Below, one piece after another: positions 41,014 through 50,010 of a stretch of 64,000 nucleotides of DNA; positions within the stretch are counted from its first letter, which is position 1, and each line of letters begins with the position of its first letter. The stretch is taken from NCBI RefSeq assembly GCF_012317585.1, contig NZ_CP042909.1, positions 930,001 through 994,000 on the forward strand, given 5' to 3'. This DNA comes from Thermosulfurimonas marina (GTDB lineage Bacteria; Desulfobacterota; Thermodesulfobacteria; Thermodesulfobacteriales; Thermodesulfobacteriaceae). The position numbers were made by a program, and so were the translations under genes. The notes under the pieces were generated by a model. It had not been told where the DNA came from and made no database searches. It saw nothing but the letters and a program-made list of their open reading frames with translations.

Positions 41014-41231
41014 ATCCCCTAGCCGAATTGGGAAAAAGCCTGATCCTTTTCGGGGTGCTTCTGATAGTGGTAGGGATGGTGACCCTGCTCCTTCCCAAGC
41101 TTTCGCAGCTTCCTCGTCTCCCCGGAGACATCCTCATTCGCCGGGGAAACTTCACCTTCTATTTCCCTTTGGCCACCTGTCTTCTTTTGAGCCTTCTTTT
41201 GACTTTGATTTTTAATCTCCTGCGACGTTAG
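41010..41231 (+). CDS. DUF2905 small membrane protein
   Basis: 73 residues with two membrane helices (SLILFGVLLIVVGMVTLLL and FPLATCLLLSLLLTLIFNLL) separated by the family motif LPRLPGDILIRRGNFTFYFP. Function unknown. ATG 41010 overlaps the queH stop by four bases. Its own stop shares TTAG with the convergent EAL gene. Confidence 0.88.
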   Translation: MNPLAELGKSLILFGVLLIVVGMVTLLLPKLSQLPRLPGDILIRRGNFTFYFPLATCLLLSLLLTLIFNLLRR

Positions 41232-42559
41232 GCCTTGAGTTCCGGGGGCTTGAGGTAACGGGTCTCGGGGATGAGCTGGGGCTCTCCGCAGTAAAATCCC
41301 TGGGCGTAGGGGACTCCGAACTTGCGCACTTCCCGCAGGACCCGTTCTTCTTCTACCTGTTCGGCCACCAGTCGAAAGTCCCTTTGCCGGGCGCAGCGAG
41401 AAAGAAAACCCAGGACCAGCCGGTCGAATTCGTTGGTGAGAAGTCCCCGCACGAAGCGGCCATCCACCTTGACGAAATCCCAGGGGATATCCCGTAAGAG
41501 GAAGAGGTTAGAGGTCTCCACCCCGAAATCGTCAAGGCTCAAAAGATAGCCCTCGGCCTTGAGGAGGGAGAGCTTCTGGGCCAGGACCAGCGGGGAAAAG
41601 CCGCTTTTGCGCTCGTTGATCTCCAGAATGAGGTCTTCGGGGAAGACCTTGAGGTCCTTTACCCAGGCGGAAAGGTCCCGGGCAAGGTTCTGATAGACAT
41701 ATTCCTGACTGAGGTTTATGGCCAGTTTGCCAAGCTCCGGGCTTTCCCGCAGGAGCACCAGGGCCTTGTAAAGGATCTGTCGATCCAGCTCTTCAAAAAG
41801 GCCGAGGTCTTCCACCGAAAGCATAAAAGCCCCGGCCGAAAGGGTCCTTTCATCCTCGGAGATATAGCGGGCCAGGACTTCATAGAAGACCGTCTGGCCG
41901 CTTTCGGTATTGATTACCGGTTGGAGGGCCAGGACCAGTTCTCCGCGGGTGATGGCGTTGAAAAGTTCCCGCTCCAGGGACTTTTTTTCCGGGGACTCCC
42001 CTCCCAGAAGAATGAGAGGCTCTGGAGAGAGACGGGCCTGGGGGAGAAGTTTTAAGGCCTCGTTGAGAAGCTCCGAGGGCTGGTGTCCTCCGCAGACCAC
42101 CCGGGTGACCACCGCGGCCTTGATGGGGAAGGAGAGTTCTTGGTCCTGATAGGAGAGTTGATTCAAGAAACGATAAAGGCGCTGGGCCACGGCGGCCCCT
42201 TCGCTGCTCTTTTTGACCGCGGCCGTAATCCAGAAGAGGCCCCGGCCGGTGGTCCCCAGAAGGTCGTAGGCCCGCTGCTGGCGCTTGATATTTTCGGCCA
42301 CAAAGGCCAGGACCTTCTGGACCCCGTAAAGTCCGTGTATGTTTTGCAGAGGCTCGAGATTTTGGATTTCCACCAGGCACAGGGCGAGAAAGCTTCCCTC
42401 GCGAAGGCAACGGGCCATTTCGGCCGAAAGGGCGCGGAGGAAGCCCCGTTCGTTCAAAAAACCCGTAACCGGATCGATGAGCAAAAGCTCTTGGGCCCGG
42501 GCCAGCTCCTCCTCACACTCCAGGAGGCGTTTTTTTAGAAAGGCGGTTTCGGAGGACAT
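41228..42559 (-). CDS. GGDEF-EAL protein, probable cyclic-di-GMP phosphodiesterase
   Basis: 443 residues. The N-terminal coiled coil leads to a degenerate GGDEF domain (LLIDPVTGFLNERGFLRAL present, but the signature strand reads TTGRGLFWI). The EAL domain from about residue 205 keeps most catalytic residues: YEVLAR in place of EALLR, INLS, LEINE, LDDFG, VKVDGRFV and AEQVEEE. Activity as a phosphodiesterase is therefore plausible. No signal peptide or membrane segment, so cytosolic. The start lacks a Shine-Dalgarno sequence; TATACT lies eight bases upstream. Confidence 0.85.
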   Translation of the reverse strand: MSSETAFLKKRLLECEEELARAQELLLIDPVTGFLNERGFLRALSAEMARCLREGSFLALCLVEIQNLEPLQNIHGLYGVQKVLAFVAENIKRQQRAYDLLGTTGRGLFWITAAVKKSSEGAAVAQRLYRFLNQLSYQDQELSFPIKAAVVTRVVCGGHQPSELLNEALKLLPQARLSPEPLILLGGESPEKKSLERELFNAITRGELVLALQPVINTESGQTVFYEVLARYISEDERTLSAGAFMLSVEDLGLFEELDRQILYKALVLLRESPELGKLAINLSQEYVYQNLARDLSAWVKDLKVFPEDLILEINERKSGFSPLVLAQKLSLLKAEGYLLSLDDFGVETSNLFLLRDIPWDFVKVDGRFVRGLLTNEFDRLVLGFLSRCARQRDFRLVAEQVEEERVLREVRKFGVPYAQGFYCGEPQLIPETRYLKPPELKA

Positions 42560-42599: not shown

Positions 42600-43766
42600 A
42601 TGCGCATCAAGGAGATCCCCGAGGACTTTGTGGTCTATGAGGTGGCGGACATGCATCCCGAGGGCCGGGGTGAGTTTGCCCTTTACCGCTTGCGCAAAAA
42701 GGGGCTTACCACCTGGGATGTACTAGGAGAGGTGGCCCGCAGGCTCCGCCTTCGCCAGGACCTCTTGGGTTACGGAGGTCTCAAGGATCGACACGCCCTT
42801 TCTCACCAGTTTGTGACCATCCCCCACGGCCCCCGCCGGGATCTGCACGGAGAGGGCTGGCATCTTGAATACCTGGGACAGGTCACGGCCCCCATGAAAA
42901 AAAGCCGCCTTAAGGGCAATTTCTTTGAGATCACCGTGCGGGAGGTGGACCTTTCCGAAGAAGACCTTTGGCGAGAGGTGGAGGCGGTCCAAACCTACGG
43001 GGTCCCCAATTATTTTGACGAGCAGCGCTTCGGTTCCGTGCGCCACGGGCAGGGCTTTGCCGCCCGGGAGGCGGTGTTAGGGAACTTCGAGCGGGCCCTC
43101 TATCTCCTGCTGGTGGAGGGCTCCCAGTACGAATACCGAAGGACCGAGGCCTTCCGGGACTGCCTGCGCCAAAACTGGCCCCGGGTAGCCCCCTGCCTTT
43201 CTCTGGCCCCGAGTCCCTGGGAAAGAAGGCTTCTAGAGTTTCTTTCCTCCCATCGGCCAAGCAAGCGTACCTTCAAACGGGCCTTTGCCCTGGTGGATCG
43301 GGAATATCTCCTCATGTTGGCCCAGGCCTACCAGGCCTATCTCTGGAACGAGGTCCTGAAGGCCCTTCTCCAAAGGGAAGGTCTGGTCCATTTTCGGGTA
43401 CCCTACCTTCTGGGGGAACTTTTCTTCTATGAAAGGCTTCCGGAGGAGGCCCTTTCCCGGCTGCGGGTCCTCAAGCTTCCCCTTCCGAGTCCCAAGCTCC
43501 GGGTCTCGGCCGAGCTTTCGACCCTTTACGAAGAGGTCCTGCGGCGGGAGGGGATCGAGGGGCTTTCCCGTCTGCGGACCCTGGTCAAGGGCCTGGTCTT
43601 TAAGACCTATCCCCGGGAGGCCCTGGTCTTCCCACAGGAACTCTCCTTCCGTCTTGCTCCGGACGAGCGGCACCCCGGGGCGCGGAAGGCCGTCTTTCGT
43701 TTCTTCCTGCCCCGGGGGGCCTACGCCACTTTGGTCTTAAAGCGCCTCTTTCGTCGGCCCCTTTAG
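42600..43766 (+). CDS. truD: tRNA pseudouridine(13) synthase TruD
   Basis: Isomerises U13 of certain tRNAs. The family nucleophile Asp is in GYGGLKDRHALSHQFVTI, with the substrate-loop motif NYFDEQRFGSVRHGQGF. The TRUD-insertion domain lies in the second half. 388 residues. Divergent from the EAL gene with 40 bases between; its stop shares TTAG with the convergent iscU gene. Confidence 0.94.
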   Translation: MRIKEIPEDFVVYEVADMHPEGRGEFALYRLRKKGLTTWDVLGEVARRLRLRQDLLGYGGLKDRHALSHQFVTIPHGPRRDLHGEGWHLEYLGQVTAPMKKSRLKGNFFEITVREVDLSEEDLWREVEAVQTYGVPNYFDEQRFGSVRHGQGFAAREAVLGNFERALYLLLVEGSQYEYRRTEAFRDCLRQNWPRVAPCLSLAPSPWERRLLEFLSSHRPSKRTFKRAFALVDREYLLMLAQAYQAYLWNEVLKALLQREGLVHFRVPYLLGELFFYERLPEEALSRLRVLKLPLPSPKLRVSAELSTLYEEVLRREGIEGLSRLRTLVKGLVFKTYPREALVFPQELSFRLAPDERHPGARKAVFRFFLPRGAYATLVLKRLFRRPL

Positions 43767-44272
43767 GCCTCGCAGGAGACCTCCAGGGGAGCCCCGCACT
43801 GCATACAGAAGCGAGCCGTAAGGGGGTTTTCCACCCCGCATTCCGGGCAGGCCTGTTTGCGTTTGGGCCGGGCAGGCTTTTCCCGGGGCTTTCCTGAGGC
43901 CCGGGCCTCATAGTCCAGGATGGCCTCCTTCAGGGCCTTGGCCCCCAGGACGGAACAGTGCCACTTCTGCTTGGGAAGGCCGCCCAATTCCCGGGCGATG
44001 TCCTCGTTGCGCAGGGCCTTGGCCTCTTCCAAGGTCTTGCCTTTGGCCAGTTCGCTCACCACACTGGCCACAGCAATAGCCGCCACACAACCGAAGGTCT
44101 TGTATTTCACATCGGTGATCCGGCCGTCCTGGACCCTGATGTAGAAGGTCATCATGTCCCCGCAGGCGGGGTTTCCCACCTCGCCCACCCCGTCGGCGTC
44201 GGGAATCTCTCCCACGTTGCGGGGGTTGGCAAAGTGTTCCAGGACCTTTTCGGTGTATTTTTCGGTAAACAT
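43763..44272 (-). CDS. iscU: IscU-type Fe-S scaffold with C-terminal zinc ribbon
   Basis: Residues 1-120 are an IscU/NifU-N scaffold with all cluster ligands: C37 and D39 (NPACGD), C62 (FGCVAA), H105 and C106 (WHCSVLG). A basic linker (KPREKPARPKRK) leads to an added zinc ribbon, C142/C145 and C156/C159, not part of standard IscU. 169 residues. It is 14 bases downstream of the IscS-like gene. The ribbon may bind the unusual IscS partner, a target protein or nucleic acid (inference). Confidence 0.9.
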   Translation of the reverse strand: MFTEKYTEKVLEHFANPRNVGEIPDADGVGEVGNPACGDMMTFYIRVQDGRITDVKYKTFGCVAAIAVASVVSELAKGKTLEEAKALRNEDIARELGGLPKQKWHCSVLGAKALKEAILDYEARASGKPREKPARPKRKQACPECGVENPLTARFCMQCGAPLEVSCEA

Positions 44273-44286
44273 AGGACCCTCCTTCG

Positions 44287-45453
44287 CTAGGATTCCCAGA
44301 TGGGGCTCATGGACCGCAGGCGGGCGACCACCTGCGGAAGGACCTCGAGCACCCGCGCTATATCTTCTTCGGTGTTTTCCTCCCCTAGGGTAAGGACCAG
44401 AGAGCCCTGGGCCACCACCTCCGGAAGGCCGATGGCCTTGAGCACCGGAGAGGTCTTGAGGGCCTTAGAGGCGCAGGCTGAGCCGGTGTTGCCGTAAATG
44501 CCGTGGGCGGCCAGAAGATAGACCAGGGCCTCGCCCTCCAGACCCTCAAAGCAAAAGCTGGCGTGACCGGGAAGGCGCTTTTCCGGATGTCCGGTAAGGT
44601 GCGTCTTAGGGATGCGGGCGGGGATCTCCTTGAGGAGGCGATCCCGGAGGGTCCGCAGGCGGGCAGCCCTTTCCGGAAGGCGTTCCCGGGCTAGCCGCGC
44701 GGCCACCCCCAGGCCGATGATCCCGGGGACATTTTCCGTCCCGGCTCGAAAACCTCGCTCCTGGATGCCGCCGTGGATAAGGGGCATGATCCGCACCCCT
44801 TTACGTACATAAAGGGCCCCCACCCCTTTGGGGGCCCCCAGGCTGATCCCGGAAAGAGAGAGGGCGTCCACACCCAAGGATTTCACCTCCACCGGGATCT
44901 GGCCCACCGAGGCTACGGCATCGGTATGGAAAAGGGCTCCTTGGGCGTGAGCTATTTCCACCAGGGGGCGCAGGTCCTGGATGGTTCCGATCTCGTTGCT
45001 GGCCTGGGCCACGGAGACCAGGACCGTATCCGGGGTGAGCATACGCTCCAGGGTCTCGGGGAGCACCCTTCCGTAGCGGTCTACCGGAAGGAGGGCCATT
45101 TCAAAGCCCAGGCGTTCGAGGAAACGGGCGCTGTTAAGGACCGAATGGTGCTCAATAGCCGAGACCAGGACCCGCCGGCCCTTCTTCTCGTTGGCCAGGG
45201 CCAGGCCCTTTACCGCAAGGTTGTTGGCCTCGGCCCCGCAGGAGGTGAAGATGATCTCTTCCGGCGCTGCTCCCAGGAGCGCGGCCACTTCCCTACGGGC
45301 GGCTTCTACCTCCTCCCGCACGCTCTGGCCCAGGTCATAGACCGCCGAAGGGTTCCAGAAGCGCTCCCCCAGGTAGGGTTCTATAGCTTGGCGCACTTCA
45401 GGCAGAAGCGGGCTGGCTGCCGCATGGTCGAGGTAGATGATCTTTTTTTCCAT
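44287..45453 (-). CDS. IscS/NifS-like protein lacking the PLP-binding lysine
   Basis: 388 residues from ATG 45453 behind GGGAGG. The fold is that of a class V aminotransferase/cysteine desulfurase (YLDHAAASPLLPEV, TSCGAEANNLAVKG, EHHSVLNS, ASNEIGTIQ, HTDA). The site where desulfurases have Ser-x-His-Lys reads S201-G-I203-S204; the codons are ATC AGC, so Lys is replaced by Ser. The conserved Gln after HTDA is also Ala. The mobile-loop cysteine is kept (GSACASKALKTSPVL). Without the Schiff-base lysine normal desulfurase activity is not expected. Archaeoglobus IscS has a comparable loss. It lies between tusA-like and iscU genes, so it may act as a platform or sulfide-dependent assembly partner. 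Confidence 0.9.
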   Translation of the reverse strand: MEKKIIYLDHAAASPLLPEVRQAIEPYLGERFWNPSAVYDLGQSVREEVEAARREVAALLGAAPEEIIFTSCGAEANNLAVKGLALANEKKGRRVLVSAIEHHSVLNSARFLERLGFEMALLPVDRYGRVLPETLERMLTPDTVLVSVAQASNEIGTIQDLRPLVEIAHAQGALFHTDAVASVGQIPVEVKSLGVDALSLSGISLGAPKGVGALYVRKGVRIMPLIHGGIQERGFRAGTENVPGIIGLGVAARLARERLPERAARLRTLRDRLLKEIPARIPKTHLTGHPEKRLPGHASFCFEGLEGEALVYLLAAHGIYGNTGSACASKALKTSPVLKAIGLPEVVAQGSLVLTLGEENTEEDIARVLEVLPQVVARLRSMSPIWES

Positions 45454-45454
45454 T

Positions 45455-45709
45455 TCAGACCTCCCGTACCTTGCGCACATAAAAGCGCAGCACGCCATCT
45501 TCTTCTTTGAGCCCCAGGAATTCCTGCCCGTGCCGCGCGCACCAGGCGGGAATGTCCTCCAGGGCCCCGTCGTAGTCGGTAAGGATTTCCAGAATCTCTC
45601 CGGGCCGGAGCTTCCGTAGGGCCTCCTCCGGCTCCAGGAGGTGCATGGGACACATGCGAAAGACCAGGTCCACCGAGGCGTCGGCCTTGACCTTTTCTAC
45701 GAACTTCAT
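45455..45709 (-). CDS. TusA-family sulfur carrier
   Basis: 84 residues with the TusA persulfide-cysteine motif CPMHLLEPEEALRKLRPGE (Cys20) and the fold continuing LEILTDYDGALEDIPAWC. These proteins accept or donate persulfide sulfur. It is the first gene of a tusA-iscS-iscU operon, with a strong promoter (45743-45770) and Shine-Dalgarno GGAGG. Given that the adjacent IscS-like protein lacks the catalytic lysine, this carrier could be the route by which sulfur enters (inference). Confidence 0.88.
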   Translation of the reverse strand: MKFVEKVKADASVDLVFRMCPMHLLEPEEALRKLRPGEILEILTDYDGALEDIPAWCARHGQEFLGLKEEDGVLRFYVRKVREV

Positions 45710-45724
45710 GGGGCACCTCCAATC

Positions 45725-45741
45725 TCTACCATTCTAGTAGA
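45725..45741. promoter_or_regulatory. Inverted repeat at the transcription start of the tusA-iscS-iscU operon
   Basis: TCTAC-N7-GTAGA spans the predicted +1 (about 45736) of the operon promoter. Such a position suits a repressor operator. It does not match the IscR consensus that I know; the cognate regulator is not in the window. Confidence 0.4.
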
Positions 45742-45742
45742 C

Positions 45743-45770
45743 ATTATAGGCCCAAAATTTCTACTGTCAA
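45743..45770 (-). promoter_or_regulatory. Strong sigma70 promoter of the tusA-iscS-iscU operon
   Basis: On the minus strand a perfect TTGACA (45765-45770) and a perfect TATAAT (45743-45748) are 16 bases apart. The predicted leader to ATG 45709 is about 27 bases and contains GGAGG. It is the best-matching promoter that I found in the window. Confidence 0.8.
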
Positions 45771-45828
45771 GATAGGAATTATCTGGGCACCCTTACGGGT
45801 TTTTCCGGGCCCCGTTAAACTGGAAGGG

Positions 45829-46803: not shown

Positions 46804-47354
46804 AAAGACCCGTGGTCTTTCTTGATCGGGACGGAACGGTGAACGAGGAAGTGGGCTATCTCAATCATCTCTCCCGTCTCCGCCTCCTCCCGGGGGCGGC
46901 CCAGGCTATAAGACTTCTCCGAGAGGCCGGTTTTGCGGTGGTGATTTTGACCAACCAGAGCGGCCCGGCTCGGGGGTATTTCCCCGAGGCCCTGGTCCAC
47001 GAGGTCCATGCGGAGTTGCGCCGTCGTCTGGCCGCCGAGGGGGCCGAACTGGACGGCCTTTACGTCTGTCTCCATCACCCCGAGGCCGGCTGCCCCTGTC
47101 GCAAGCCCCGGCCGGGTCTGGCCCTGAGGGCGGCCGAAGAACTGGATCTGGACCTTTCCCGGGCCTTTGTGGTGGGGGACCGCTGGGTGGACCTGGCCCT
47201 GGCTAGAAATATCGGGGCCCGGGGAGTGCTGGTCCTTACGGGATATGGGCGCGGGGAGCTGGAATATGTGCTTCCGCAGAAGGGGCTTGAGCCGGATCTG
47301 GTGGCCGAAGACCTCCTTTCCGCGGCCCGCCTAATCCTCTCCCGTCGGGCCTAA
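46800..47354 (+). CDS. gmhB: D-glycero-beta-D-manno-heptose-1,7-bisphosphate 7-phosphatase
   Basis: HAD-family phosphatase of ADP-heptose synthesis. FLDRDGTVNEE (nucleophile Asp), VVILTNQSG, the zinc-loop HHPEAGCPC and KPRPG, and VVGDRWVDLALARN. ATG 46800 overlaps the waaF stop as ATGA. 184 residues. Its 3' end overlaps the convergent histidine-kinase gene by 24 bases. Confidence 0.93.
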   Translation: MKRPVVFLDRDGTVNEEVGYLNHLSRLRLLPGAAQAIRLLREAGFAVVILTNQSGPARGYFPEALVHEVHAELRRRLAAEGAELDGLYVCLHHPEAGCPCRKPRPGLALRAAEELDLDLSRAFVVGDRWVDLALARNIGARGVLVLTGYGRGELEYVLPQKGLEPDLVAEDLLSAARLILSRRA

Positions 47355-49976
47355 GACTTCGGCCATTACCCGTAGAAGGTCCTGGGCGGAAAAGGGCTTC
47401 ACCATCGCCCCGTCGAAGCCGAAGTCCCGAAAGTTAGAAAGCACCGGATCCTGCGAATAACCGCTCATGACGATGGCTTTTACCTCCGGGTCCCGCCGAC
47501 GCATCTCCGGAAGGACCTCCTTGCCTCCAAGGCCTCCGGGGACGGTGAGGTCCAGGAGGACCACTTCAAAGGGCCGGCCCGCCGAAAGGGCTTCCTCGAA
47601 GGCCTTGAGGGCCTCCCCGCCTTCGGAGGCGGTCTCCACCTCGAAGCCCTGAAGACGCAGGAGTTCGGCCACGGTCTCCCGCACTCCCTCCTCATCGTCC
47701 AGGACCAGGACTCGGGCTCGCCGGGGGATGGCCGGTCTTGGGCGTTCTTCGGCCGGAAGAACCTGGCCTTCGGCGGCGGGAAGATAGATCCGGAAAAGGG
47801 CCCCGCCCTCGGGGGCGTTTTCCGCCAGGATGCGCCCCCCGTGGGCCTCAATCACCCGGCGACAGGTGAAAAGCCCCAGCCCCGAGCCCCCGGGCTTGGT
47901 GGTGAAAAAGGGCTCAAAGATCCGGGGGAGATCTTCCTCCGGGATCCCCGGGCCGGTGTCCCGAATCTCAAGAGCCACGTAAGGGCCCGGGGGAAGTCCC
48001 GAGGGGTCTCCGGGAGGAAGCTCCACCTTCCGGGCCCGCAAAAAAATACGGCCCCACTCTCCCATAGCCTGGCGGGCGTTGAGAAGGAGGTTGTGGAGAC
48101 AGATGGCCATCTGTTCTAGGTCCATCTCCACCGGGGGAAGATCTGGCTCTAGGTTGAGCTCCGCCTGGACCCCGGAGCCGGCCAGCCCGAAGGCCAGGGC
48201 CTCCCGGATCACCTCCTCCAACCGGGCCAGCCTCTTTACCGGGCCCCCGCCTTTGGTGTAGGTGAGAAGTTCCCGGGTAAGGGTGCGGGCCGAAAGACAG
48301 GCCTTCTCCGCCCGCTCGGCCACTTCCTGGATCTCCGGATCGGAGACCCGGAGACGGAGCACATCGAGATAGCCCATAATGGTGGCCAGGAGATTGTTGA
48401 AGTCGTGGGCCAGCCCGGCAGCCAGAAGGCTCAGGACCTCAAGCTGGGAAGCCCTTCGGGCCTCTTCTTCCAGGCGCTTTCGCAGGGAAATATCCCTCAA
48501 GATGACTACCGTGCCCAGGATCTGGCTCCCTTCTCCATGGACCGGGGCCGCGGTCCCCTCCACCACCCGTTCCTCTCCCTGGGGAAGCCTCAGCCGGGCC
48601 TCCGCGATCTCCACTAGGCGGTCTTCTTGCAGCAAAAGAAGAGCCTCCCCACAGGGCCTCCCATCTATTTCCAGAGAAAGGGCCTCACAGAAGGATCTTC
48701 CCACCAGCTCTTTCGAGCGCCGACCCAAAAGCTTTTCGGCCGCGGGATTCACCAGGGTGATTCGTCCCCAGGTGTCGGTGACGATGACCGCCTCTCCCAG
48801 GGAGCGCAGAATGACCGCCAGGCGCTCCCGCTCCTCCCGCAGGGTTTCGGCCAGGGCCTCCAGGTTGGCCGTGCGCTCGGCCACCATCTCTTCTAGGTGA
48901 TGGCGATATTCGTCTAAACTTCGGTTGAGCTTAGTTAGTCGCCGATTGAGATAGAAAATATAGAGGGTTAAAAAAAGCCCGATGAGGGAAATCAGGGTGT
49001 AGAGGAAAATGATGTGCAGGTAGCGCTTGCGGGCCTCTTTCAGGGCCCGGGCCCGAACCTCGGCGTAGGGGCCAAGCCCCAATTCCTTGAAGGCCTCGTG
49101 GACCGGCTGGTAATTGAGCGGAAGGGTCCAGGCGGCCTCCGCGGCCCGGGCGACCGGAGAATCTTTGGGGAGGGCCAGGAGGGCGGCGGCCAGGGTCTCG
49201 GCCTTTTCGTCCGCAAGCCGGGGGGTGCGGGCCAGGGGCCATTCCGGATAAAGTTCCGTGCTCACCAGGAAGGCAAACCCTGGATGTTTTACCGGATGAA
49301 GCACCCGAAAATCCGCAAGCCGAATCCGTCCCTCGGCGGCCATGCTCTCCAGGGTATCGGTGCGCACACAGCCCGCATCCACCTCTCCCCGGAGGACGGC
49401 CAGGACTACCGCGTCGTGGGTTCCGTAAAAGCGCACGGTGTAGTCCTTCCCCCGTCGCAGCCCCGCCCGCCGCAGGAGGCGCCACTGCATGATCCAGCCC
49501 CCAAAAGATTCCGGATCCACGGCCCCGATTAGGGCCCCTTTTGCCGGAGGGTGTCTCTGGTGCCGGAGGTCCTTGAGGGAGCGAATATCCCGGCGGTCGG
49601 CCCGGGTAAAAAGGACTCCTCCGAAGCGCGAATAGACCTGTCCTAGCTTTAGGTTCTTGAGAGTCACCAGAGGCGTAACCCCGCAGCAGGACTCAAAGAG
49701 GACATACATCCCGGAATTGGCCAGAACGAGATCCACCTTCTGCCCTTCCACGGCCTCTTCGAGTTCGCGGAAGGGCAGGGGGAGGAGCTTTATCTTAAGG
49801 CCGGTGCGCCTTTCGAGATAGTCCACCAGGGGTTGCCAGCGCCTGCGGGCGATCTCCGGCCCCCTTTTGGCCAGCACCGCAAAGACCACTTCCTGATTCG
49901 AGGCGGCCGGGGTCAGAGTCGGCAGGGCCGAAGAGAAAAAGACCGCAAGAAGGACCAAACGCACCAGAAGAAACAT
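47331..49976 (-). CDS. Hybrid sensor histidine kinase with PhnD-like periplasmic sensor domain
   Basis: 881 residues. A signal sequence is followed by a periplasmic phosphonate-binding-like domain (about 28-305; VVFAVLAKRGPEIARRRWQP, DLVLANSGMYVL), as in TtrS-type sensors. Then a transmembrane helix (about 321-344), coiled coil, PAS domain (about 388-500), HisKA with H525 (GLAHDFNNLLATIMGY), HATPase (IRDTGPGIPEEDLPRIFEPFFTT, GSGLGLF) and a C-terminal receiver (VLVLDDEEG, LLDLTVPG, VKPFS). ATG 49976 chosen over the GTG just before. The ligand could be an oxyanion or sulfur compound. No separate output regulator is adjacent. Confidence 0.88.
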   Translation of the reverse strand: MFLLVRLVLLAVFFSSALPTLTPAASNQEVVFAVLAKRGPEIARRRWQPLVDYLERRTGLKIKLLPLPFRELEEAVEGQKVDLVLANSGMYVLFESCCGVTPLVTLKNLKLGQVYSRFGGVLFTRADRRDIRSLKDLRHQRHPPAKGALIGAVDPESFGGWIMQWRLLRRAGLRRGKDYTVRFYGTHDAVVLAVLRGEVDAGCVRTDTLESMAAEGRIRLADFRVLHPVKHPGFAFLVSTELYPEWPLARTPRLADEKAETLAAALLALPKDSPVARAAEAAWTLPLNYQPVHEAFKELGLGPYAEVRARALKEARKRYLHIIFLYTLISLIGLFLTLYIFYLNRRLTKLNRSLDEYRHHLEEMVAERTANLEALAETLREERERLAVILRSLGEAVIVTDTWGRITLVNPAAEKLLGRRSKELVGRSFCEALSLEIDGRPCGEALLLLQEDRLVEIAEARLRLPQGEERVVEGTAAPVHGEGSQILGTVVILRDISLRKRLEEEARRASQLEVLSLLAAGLAHDFNNLLATIMGYLDVLRLRVSDPEIQEVAERAEKACLSARTLTRELLTYTKGGGPVKRLARLEEVIREALAFGLAGSGVQAELNLEPDLPPVEMDLEQMAICLHNLLLNARQAMGEWGRIFLRARKVELPPGDPSGLPPGPYVALEIRDTGPGIPEEDLPRIFEPFFTTKPGGSGLGLFTCRRVIEAHGGRILAENAPEGGALFRIYLPAAEGQVLPAEERPRPAIPRRARVLVLDDEEGVRETVAELLRLQGFEVETASEGGEALKAFEEALSAGRPFEVVLLDLTVPGGLGGKEVLPEMRRRDPEVKAIVMSGYSQDPVLSNFRDFGFDGAMVKPFSAQDLLRVMAEVLGPTGED

Positions 49977-50010
49977 CACCTTTAAGGTTAATAAAATTTC
50001 GGATCGAGGG

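Follow-up and report, generated by a model that had tools for sequence, protein, structure and literature searches.

A tusA-iscS-iscU operon with a lysine-less IscS-like protein in Thermosulfurimonas marina: a candidate TusA-fed, PLP-independent module for iron-sulfur cluster assembly

The 64,000-nucleotide stretch of Thermosulfurimonas marina DNA analysed here (the window) carries an operon in which a promoter is followed by tusA, iscS and an iscU gene with a fused zinc ribbon, three closely packed genes all on the minus strand. The IscS-like protein has no lysine at the Schiff-base position, and tusA was found beside lysine-less iscS genes elsewhere. With moderate confidence, and with no biochemistry behind it, we read the operon as a minimal IscS-IscU system that works without PLP and is fed by TusA. 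Its features are as follows.

43763-44272, minus strand: iscU scaffold gene, 169 aa (PF01592, 160.9 bits)
43784-43849, minus strand: zinc ribbon CPECG...CMQCG fused to the C-terminus of IscU (PF13240, 35.3 bits, residues 142-163)
44287-45453, minus strand: iscS-like gene, 388 aa (PF00266, 246.5 bits)
44473-44475, minus strand: Cys327, the mobile-loop Cys in GSACAS (alignment)
44842-44847, minus strand: codons ATC AGC, Ile203-Ser204 replacing His-Lys (codons and alignment)
44911-44913, minus strand: Ala181 replacing the PLP-contacting Gln of HTDAVQ (alignment)
45455-45709, minus strand: tusA, sulfur carrier gene, 84 aa (PF01206, 67.5 bits)
45726-45740, no strand assigned: inverted repeat CTAC-N7-GTAG between the -10 box and tusA; putative operator, paired with the repeat at 45761-45775
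45743-45770, minus strand: sigma-70-type promoter TTGACA-16-TATAAT before tusA, 12 of 12 consensus positions
45761-45775, no strand assigned: inverted repeat CTAY-N7-RTAG overlapping the -35 box; the other putative operator of the pair

The most likely start of iscS was the ATG one nucleotide past the tusA stop (45453), which gives the 388-aa product. The operon was flanked by a divergent heptosyltransferase gene on one side and a convergent truD on the other. One perfect-consensus promoter was observed against 0.3 expected in shuffles. The inverted-repeat pair (45726-45775) had no other occurrence in the 1.76-Mb genome, and a sequence resembling it was also present upstream of tusA in the congeners G002, G003 and G005, which suggests a dedicated regulator acting at these putative operators. 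Elsewhere in the window, positions 41228-42559 encode a GGDEF-EAL protein whose GGDEF part matched weakly, and positions 47331-49979 encode an 882-aa hybrid of a phosphonate-binding-type periplasmic domain, a PAS domain, a histidine kinase and a receiver domain.

An earlier note, made from the DNA letters without database searches, had claimed that Ile203-Ser204 stand in place of His-Lys, that Ala replaces the conserved Gln and that the catalytic-loop Cys is kept; frame, codons and residues confirmed all three. In alignments, the window protein reads LSLSG-Ile203-Ser204-LGAPKG where lysine-bearing relatives have S(G/A/S)HK. The lysine, the His beside it, the Gln and the Thr of GTE were replaced; Asp178 (of HTD), the stacking His102, Ser201 and loop Cys327 were retained. 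The protein thus does not meet the Schiff-base lysine requirement for a PLP-dependent cysteine desulfurase, with Ser204 at the site, nor the requirement for the PLP-contacting Gln of type I NifS/IscS proteins, with Ala181 in its place. It does have the aminotransferase V fold-type I domain and the persulfide-carrying mobile-loop Cys of type I NifS/IscS. Scores were below the curated NifS/IscS equivalog cut-offs (464.7 versus 530.75 for TIGR03402; 338 versus 643 for TIGR02006), with the caveat that L002, a protein of the same genome with an intact GHK motif, scored below them as well. AlphaFold2 (five models) gave a mean pLDDT of 90.3, with values below 50 in two loops only, one of which was the Cys loop. 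The best PDB matches of the model were the Archaeoglobus fulgidus IscS entries (TM 0.92/0.94), led by the IscS-IscU complex 4EB7 (TM 0.92), followed by human and other bacterial IscS. By this prediction, the NifS/IscS fold has been conserved despite the lost Schiff-base lysine. The Gly-Ile-Ser residues and the same gene order were shared by four genomes of the genus (the window genome, G002, G003 and G005), and dN/dS between congeners was 0.11-0.13 for iscS, 0.09-0.13 for iscU and 0.08-0.20 for tusA.

IscS/NifS-type loci were collected from relatives, 84,980 species genomes, 217 genomes of the window's phylum and 247 genomes of the phylum containing Archaeoglobus. The lysine was missing in 130 of 251 distinct proteins and present in 121, and the site was occupied instead by Q, P, S, A, N, T, D, I, R, H or E. 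The PLP-contacting Gln was found in 120 of 121 lysine-bearing proteins versus only 2 of 130 lysine-less ones. The loop Cys was present in all 251 aligned proteins; for the species-genome scan this count is partly by construction (one search pattern included the Cys), and the other sets were unaffected. The earlier note had named takeover of PLP binding by another lysine as a possible refutation. No invariant lysine was found among the lysine-less proteins, and the nearby PKG lysine was missing in several. Within the Thermodesulfobacteriota, which the note had proposed to survey, lysine loss was widespread. The note had framed its inference for a sulfide-rich thermophile; lysine loss extends far beyond thermophiles and beyond this phylum. 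It is likely, inferring from sequence alone, that many anaerobe proteins annotated as cysteine desulfurases are not such enzymes.

A same-strand tusA lay within 2.5 kb of 65 of the 130 lysine-less genes versus 1 of the 121 lysine-bearing genes (Fisher 3.6e-22). The difference was seen both in the phylum set (22/76 versus 0/42) and in the species-genome scan (12/19 versus 1/61), and linkage reached 32/37 in the Archaeoglobus type. A TusA model trained on these operons could have biased the counts; this was ruled out, since a broader model gave identical counts at all cut-offs from 1e-10 to 0.05. Unequal flanks were likewise excluded as a cause, the median flank lengths being equal. Kinship among the sequences makes the Fisher values too strong, and the argument rests on approximately three independent losses; a lineage-corrected pair test (FastTree) found only three independent pairs and had no power. 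A DsrE-family gene, absent from the earlier note's account, accompanied 34 of 130 lysine-less genes and none of the 121 lysine-bearing ones (representatives confirmed by Pfam PF02635/PF13686). In many genomes such sulfurtransferases are thus part of the module. Relatives of Archaeoglobus encode a small DsrE protein between tusA and iscS, and a DsrE2-like protein is encoded within the operon in several bacterial lineages and in the Methanosarcina locus L250. No dsrE gene is present in the window operon. Of the lysine-less genes, half had no nearby tusA, so TusA is not encoded alongside in every case and may be dispensable. A notable example was a large IscU-first subgroup of Thermodesulfobacteriota (L165-L208, e.g., L170:3480-4613), with iscU upstream and a TRSACA loop. 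No recurrent sulfurtransferase was seen when the neighbours of the tusA-less subgroups were inspected by eye.

In the IQ-TREE phylogeny, the window protein fell in a large bacterial lysine-less clade and not in the A. fulgidus IscS clade; the A. fulgidus reference sequence used matched 4EB5 at 382 of 382 residues. A single clade of bacterial and A. fulgidus-type lysine-less proteins was disfavoured (AU p 0.032). By this phylogeny, at least two losses of the lysine occurred, and probably three: in the bacterial clade, in the A. fulgidus type and in Methanosarcina L250. Genes for TusA were present in all three lineages. In A. fulgidus itself, a second iscS copy (L282, 87% identical) has tusA and a dsrE gene upstream. 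The earlier note had drawn a parallel with A. fulgidus IscS; loss of the lysine and inactivity held (PMC7585200), yet this was a separate loss and that protein is not the closest by descent. The traits shared by the window locus with the A. fulgidus type are the lost lysine, the kept loop Cys and an adjacent iscU. The Methanosarcina operon (L250:517-2649) has the order tusA-dsrE2-iscS-iscU, with Thr in place of the lysine. Judged only by its sequence, this operon is a candidate sulfide route, and it lies in an archaeon open to genetic work.

The one lysine-bearing gene with a same-strand tusA was L068:3920-5155 from a Nitrospirae MAG, which encodes an IscS with the lysine and without the Gln, with tusA downstream. 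Its placement, with weak support (90/82), was close to where the bacterial lysine-less clade begins. Monophyly of the bacterial lysine-less proteins to the exclusion of L068 was not rejected (AU p 0.46), which leaves both an intermediate and a sister position possible for L068. Its features are compatible with TusA supply having come first and PLP chemistry having been lost later.

Window TusA has its putative persulfide Cys20 (45650-45652) in CPMHLL, and a second Cys at position 57. The Cys and first Pro of the CPxP motif are kept and the second Pro is replaced (CPMH); the putative persulfide Cys was invariant in 68 of 68 aligned TusA proteins. By alignment, window IscU has the expected ligand residues Cys37, Asp39, Cys62 and Cys106, plus Lys103. 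The earlier note had counted a zinc-ribbon IscU as part of the module, and this held only in part. The ribbon is fused to IscU in the window, encoded by a free-standing gene in L063, L066 and L051 and missing in many other loci; this variable presence shows that it is an accessory and not a defining part. In three members of genus g5, iscU is followed by a second and divergent IscU-like gene (L043:8201-8581, L045:5823-6215 and L046:1729-2118), and the L043 protein (NifU_N, 68 bits) has a Pro/Cys-rich insert.

The window genome is a single contig of 1,763,258 bases and is 99.96% complete. It encodes two NifS/IscS-type proteins, the operon IscS and L002. The latter is the lysine-containing desulfurase that the earlier note had suggested looking for; its gene lies 0.6 Mb from the operon, where it overlaps a ThiI-like gene and has no iscU beside it. 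The operon IscU is the only IscU (NifU_N) of the genome. There is one SufB-like protein, whose best NCBIfam matches, SmsB and SufB, were both below cut-off. Given its presence, the main Fe-S system may be another than the operon. Three TusA proteins are encoded, one of them at L321:5003-7216 in a YedE-TusA cluster together with two small proteins without a Pfam match. Across the window's family, IscU was found in 9 of 30 genomes. A full-length or nearly full-length lysine-less IscS adjoined it in eight of the nine, and a 60%-identical C-terminal IscS fragment did so in the ninth (G011). Most of the 21 family genomes without IscU had a NifS/IscS-type match at 40-46% identity, and the lysine was present in the two such proteins checked (L032 and L037).

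Three published observations underlie the proposed mechanism. In E. coli IscS, the TusA and IscU sites overlap and both reach Cys328, with sulfur passing from IscS to TusA (PMC11302665). A. fulgidus IscS is reported to lack desulfurase activity owing to Asp in place of the lysine, and one of its Cys residues acts as a ligand of the cluster on IscU; Methanosarcina acetivorans IscS1 likewise lacks the lysine (PMC7585200). In Metallosphaera, thiosulfonate groups are exchanged between homologues of TusA and DsrE (PMC4175335). From the overlapping sites, the inactivity and the carrier exchange, a TusA-charged, PLP-free IscS was inferred. TusA, with a DsrE-family partner in many relatives, would carry sulfane sulfur derived from sulfide, polysulfide or thiosulfate, dock on the IscS-like protein and hand a persulfide to loop Cys327. 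The Cys327 loop would then deliver the persulfide to IscU, perhaps also serving for a time as a ligand, and IscU would be the site of cluster building. Sulfur would flow in the direction opposite to that in E. coli, where IscS charges TusA. The data themselves establish the order of the genes, the residues at the key sites, the phylogeny and the tusA association, along with a fold that is conserved by prediction. The absence of PLP chemistry, the direction of flow and the identity of the donor are all inferences, as there are no activity data. Since TusA commonly takes part in tRNA thiolation or in making the molybdenum cofactor, gene linkage by itself leaves the direction of sulfur flow undecided. 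The comparative evidence, with its independent lineages, strongly supports the earlier note's suggestion that TusA, a lysine-less IscS and IscU form an Fe-S assembly variant. It also supports the suggestion of an IscS-like platform receiving sulfur from sulfide or a TusA persulfide, although sulfur donation itself remains inferred.

The strongest alternative, which remains possible, is that the IscS-like protein is a platform only, giving a Cys ligand and positioning IscU while free sulfide feeds the cluster directly, and that TusA is merely co-regulated for another pathway. Such a role has already been put forward for the A. fulgidus protein (PMC7585200, citing Pagnier), whose complex with IscU has the fold nearest to the model, and some lysine-less proteins have no tusA. 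However, this leaves unexplained why tusA and dsrE repeatedly joined lysine-less and not lysine-bearing genes in independent lineages. Less probable is that cysteine is still the source, with the lysine-containing desulfurase beside the ThiI-like gene charging TusA, which then charges the lysine-less IscS, so that only the site of desulfuration has moved. An intact GHK desulfurase is indeed present in the genome, and E. coli IscS is known to charge TusA (PMC11302665). Against this, L002-type matches (sought in the window's family and not in A. fulgidus-type genomes) also occur in family members without IscU, L002 is tied to the ThiI-like gene in the window genome, and the same genome has the YedE-TusA sulfur-import cluster. 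It is very improbable that the window protein still binds PLP non-covalently with slow or different PLP activity: the fold, Asp178, His102 and Ser201 are kept, but four other residues have changed (the lysine and its adjoining His, the Gln, and the Thr of GTE), and the 11 residue types at the lysine site across the family are unlike a conserved new catalytic residue. Sequencing error or gene decay, which loss of a normally essential catalytic residue might suggest, is practically excluded by the same state in four genus genomes and a phylum-wide clade, the iscS dN/dS of 0.11-0.13, the perfect promoter and the intact predicted fold.

A bolder version of the TusA-fed reading, which we regard as about as probable as not, is that TusA, often DsrE, lysine-less IscS and IscU form a distinct class of Fe-S machinery running on inorganic sulfane sulfur or sulfide and not on cysteine. 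Anaerobes of both domains would have evolved it at least twice, probably three times, and it would be the sulfide route of Archaeoglobus and Methanosarcina. The question addressed is how sulfur enters the clusters of sulfide-using anaerobes without a cysteine desulfurase. In M. acetivorans, SufBC is dispensable, and loss of SufBC or IscSU2 caused no sulfide-specific defect (PMC10500019, PMC7585200). The recurrent TusA/DsrE, lysine-less IscS and IscU module offers concrete genes for a sulfide route, testable in a tractable archaeon, and TusA provides a partner for the puzzling A. fulgidus IscS structure. Recurrence in bacteria and archaea suggests a cysteine-independent sulfur feed into essential Fe-S cofactors. 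Lysine loss in A. fulgidus IscS and M. acetivorans IscS1 was already known (PMC7585200). In the literature searched, we met no account of coupling to TusA/DsrE, or of such coupling recurring, and no mention of tusA linkage of A. fulgidus IscS; the original A. fulgidus IscS and MIS/SMS papers were outside that scope.

Among known systems, A. fulgidus IscS-IscU (PDB 4EB5/4EB7, 4HVK; D199K mutant 4R5F) resembles the window pair in lacking the lysine and the Gln, in keeping the loop Cys and in having iscU as the next gene. It differs in having Asp at the lysine site, versus Ser204 in the window, and in representing a phylogenetically separate loss. The MIS system (MisS-MisU, M. acetivorans IscSU2) is likewise a desulfurase-scaffold gene pair, without carriers (PMC12442378, PMC12192291). 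It is described with a cysteine desulfurase, whereas the IscS-IscU pair of the window lacks the lysine by sequence and has TusA added. In E. coli, the same three protein families (IscS, TusA and IscU) come together, with TusA and IscU docking near Cys328 (PMC11302665); the difference is that E. coli IscS makes the persulfide from cysteine and passes it to TusA. E. coli tusA lies outside the isc operon. The YedE-TusA cluster of the window genome resembles the YTD cluster of sulfur disproportionators (PMC9751629). That cluster and the TusA/DsrE relay of sulfur oxidisers (PMC4175335, PMC9751629) use carriers with a conserved Cys, as here, but serve energy metabolism, whereas here the TusA/DsrE pair sits with an Fe-S scaffold.
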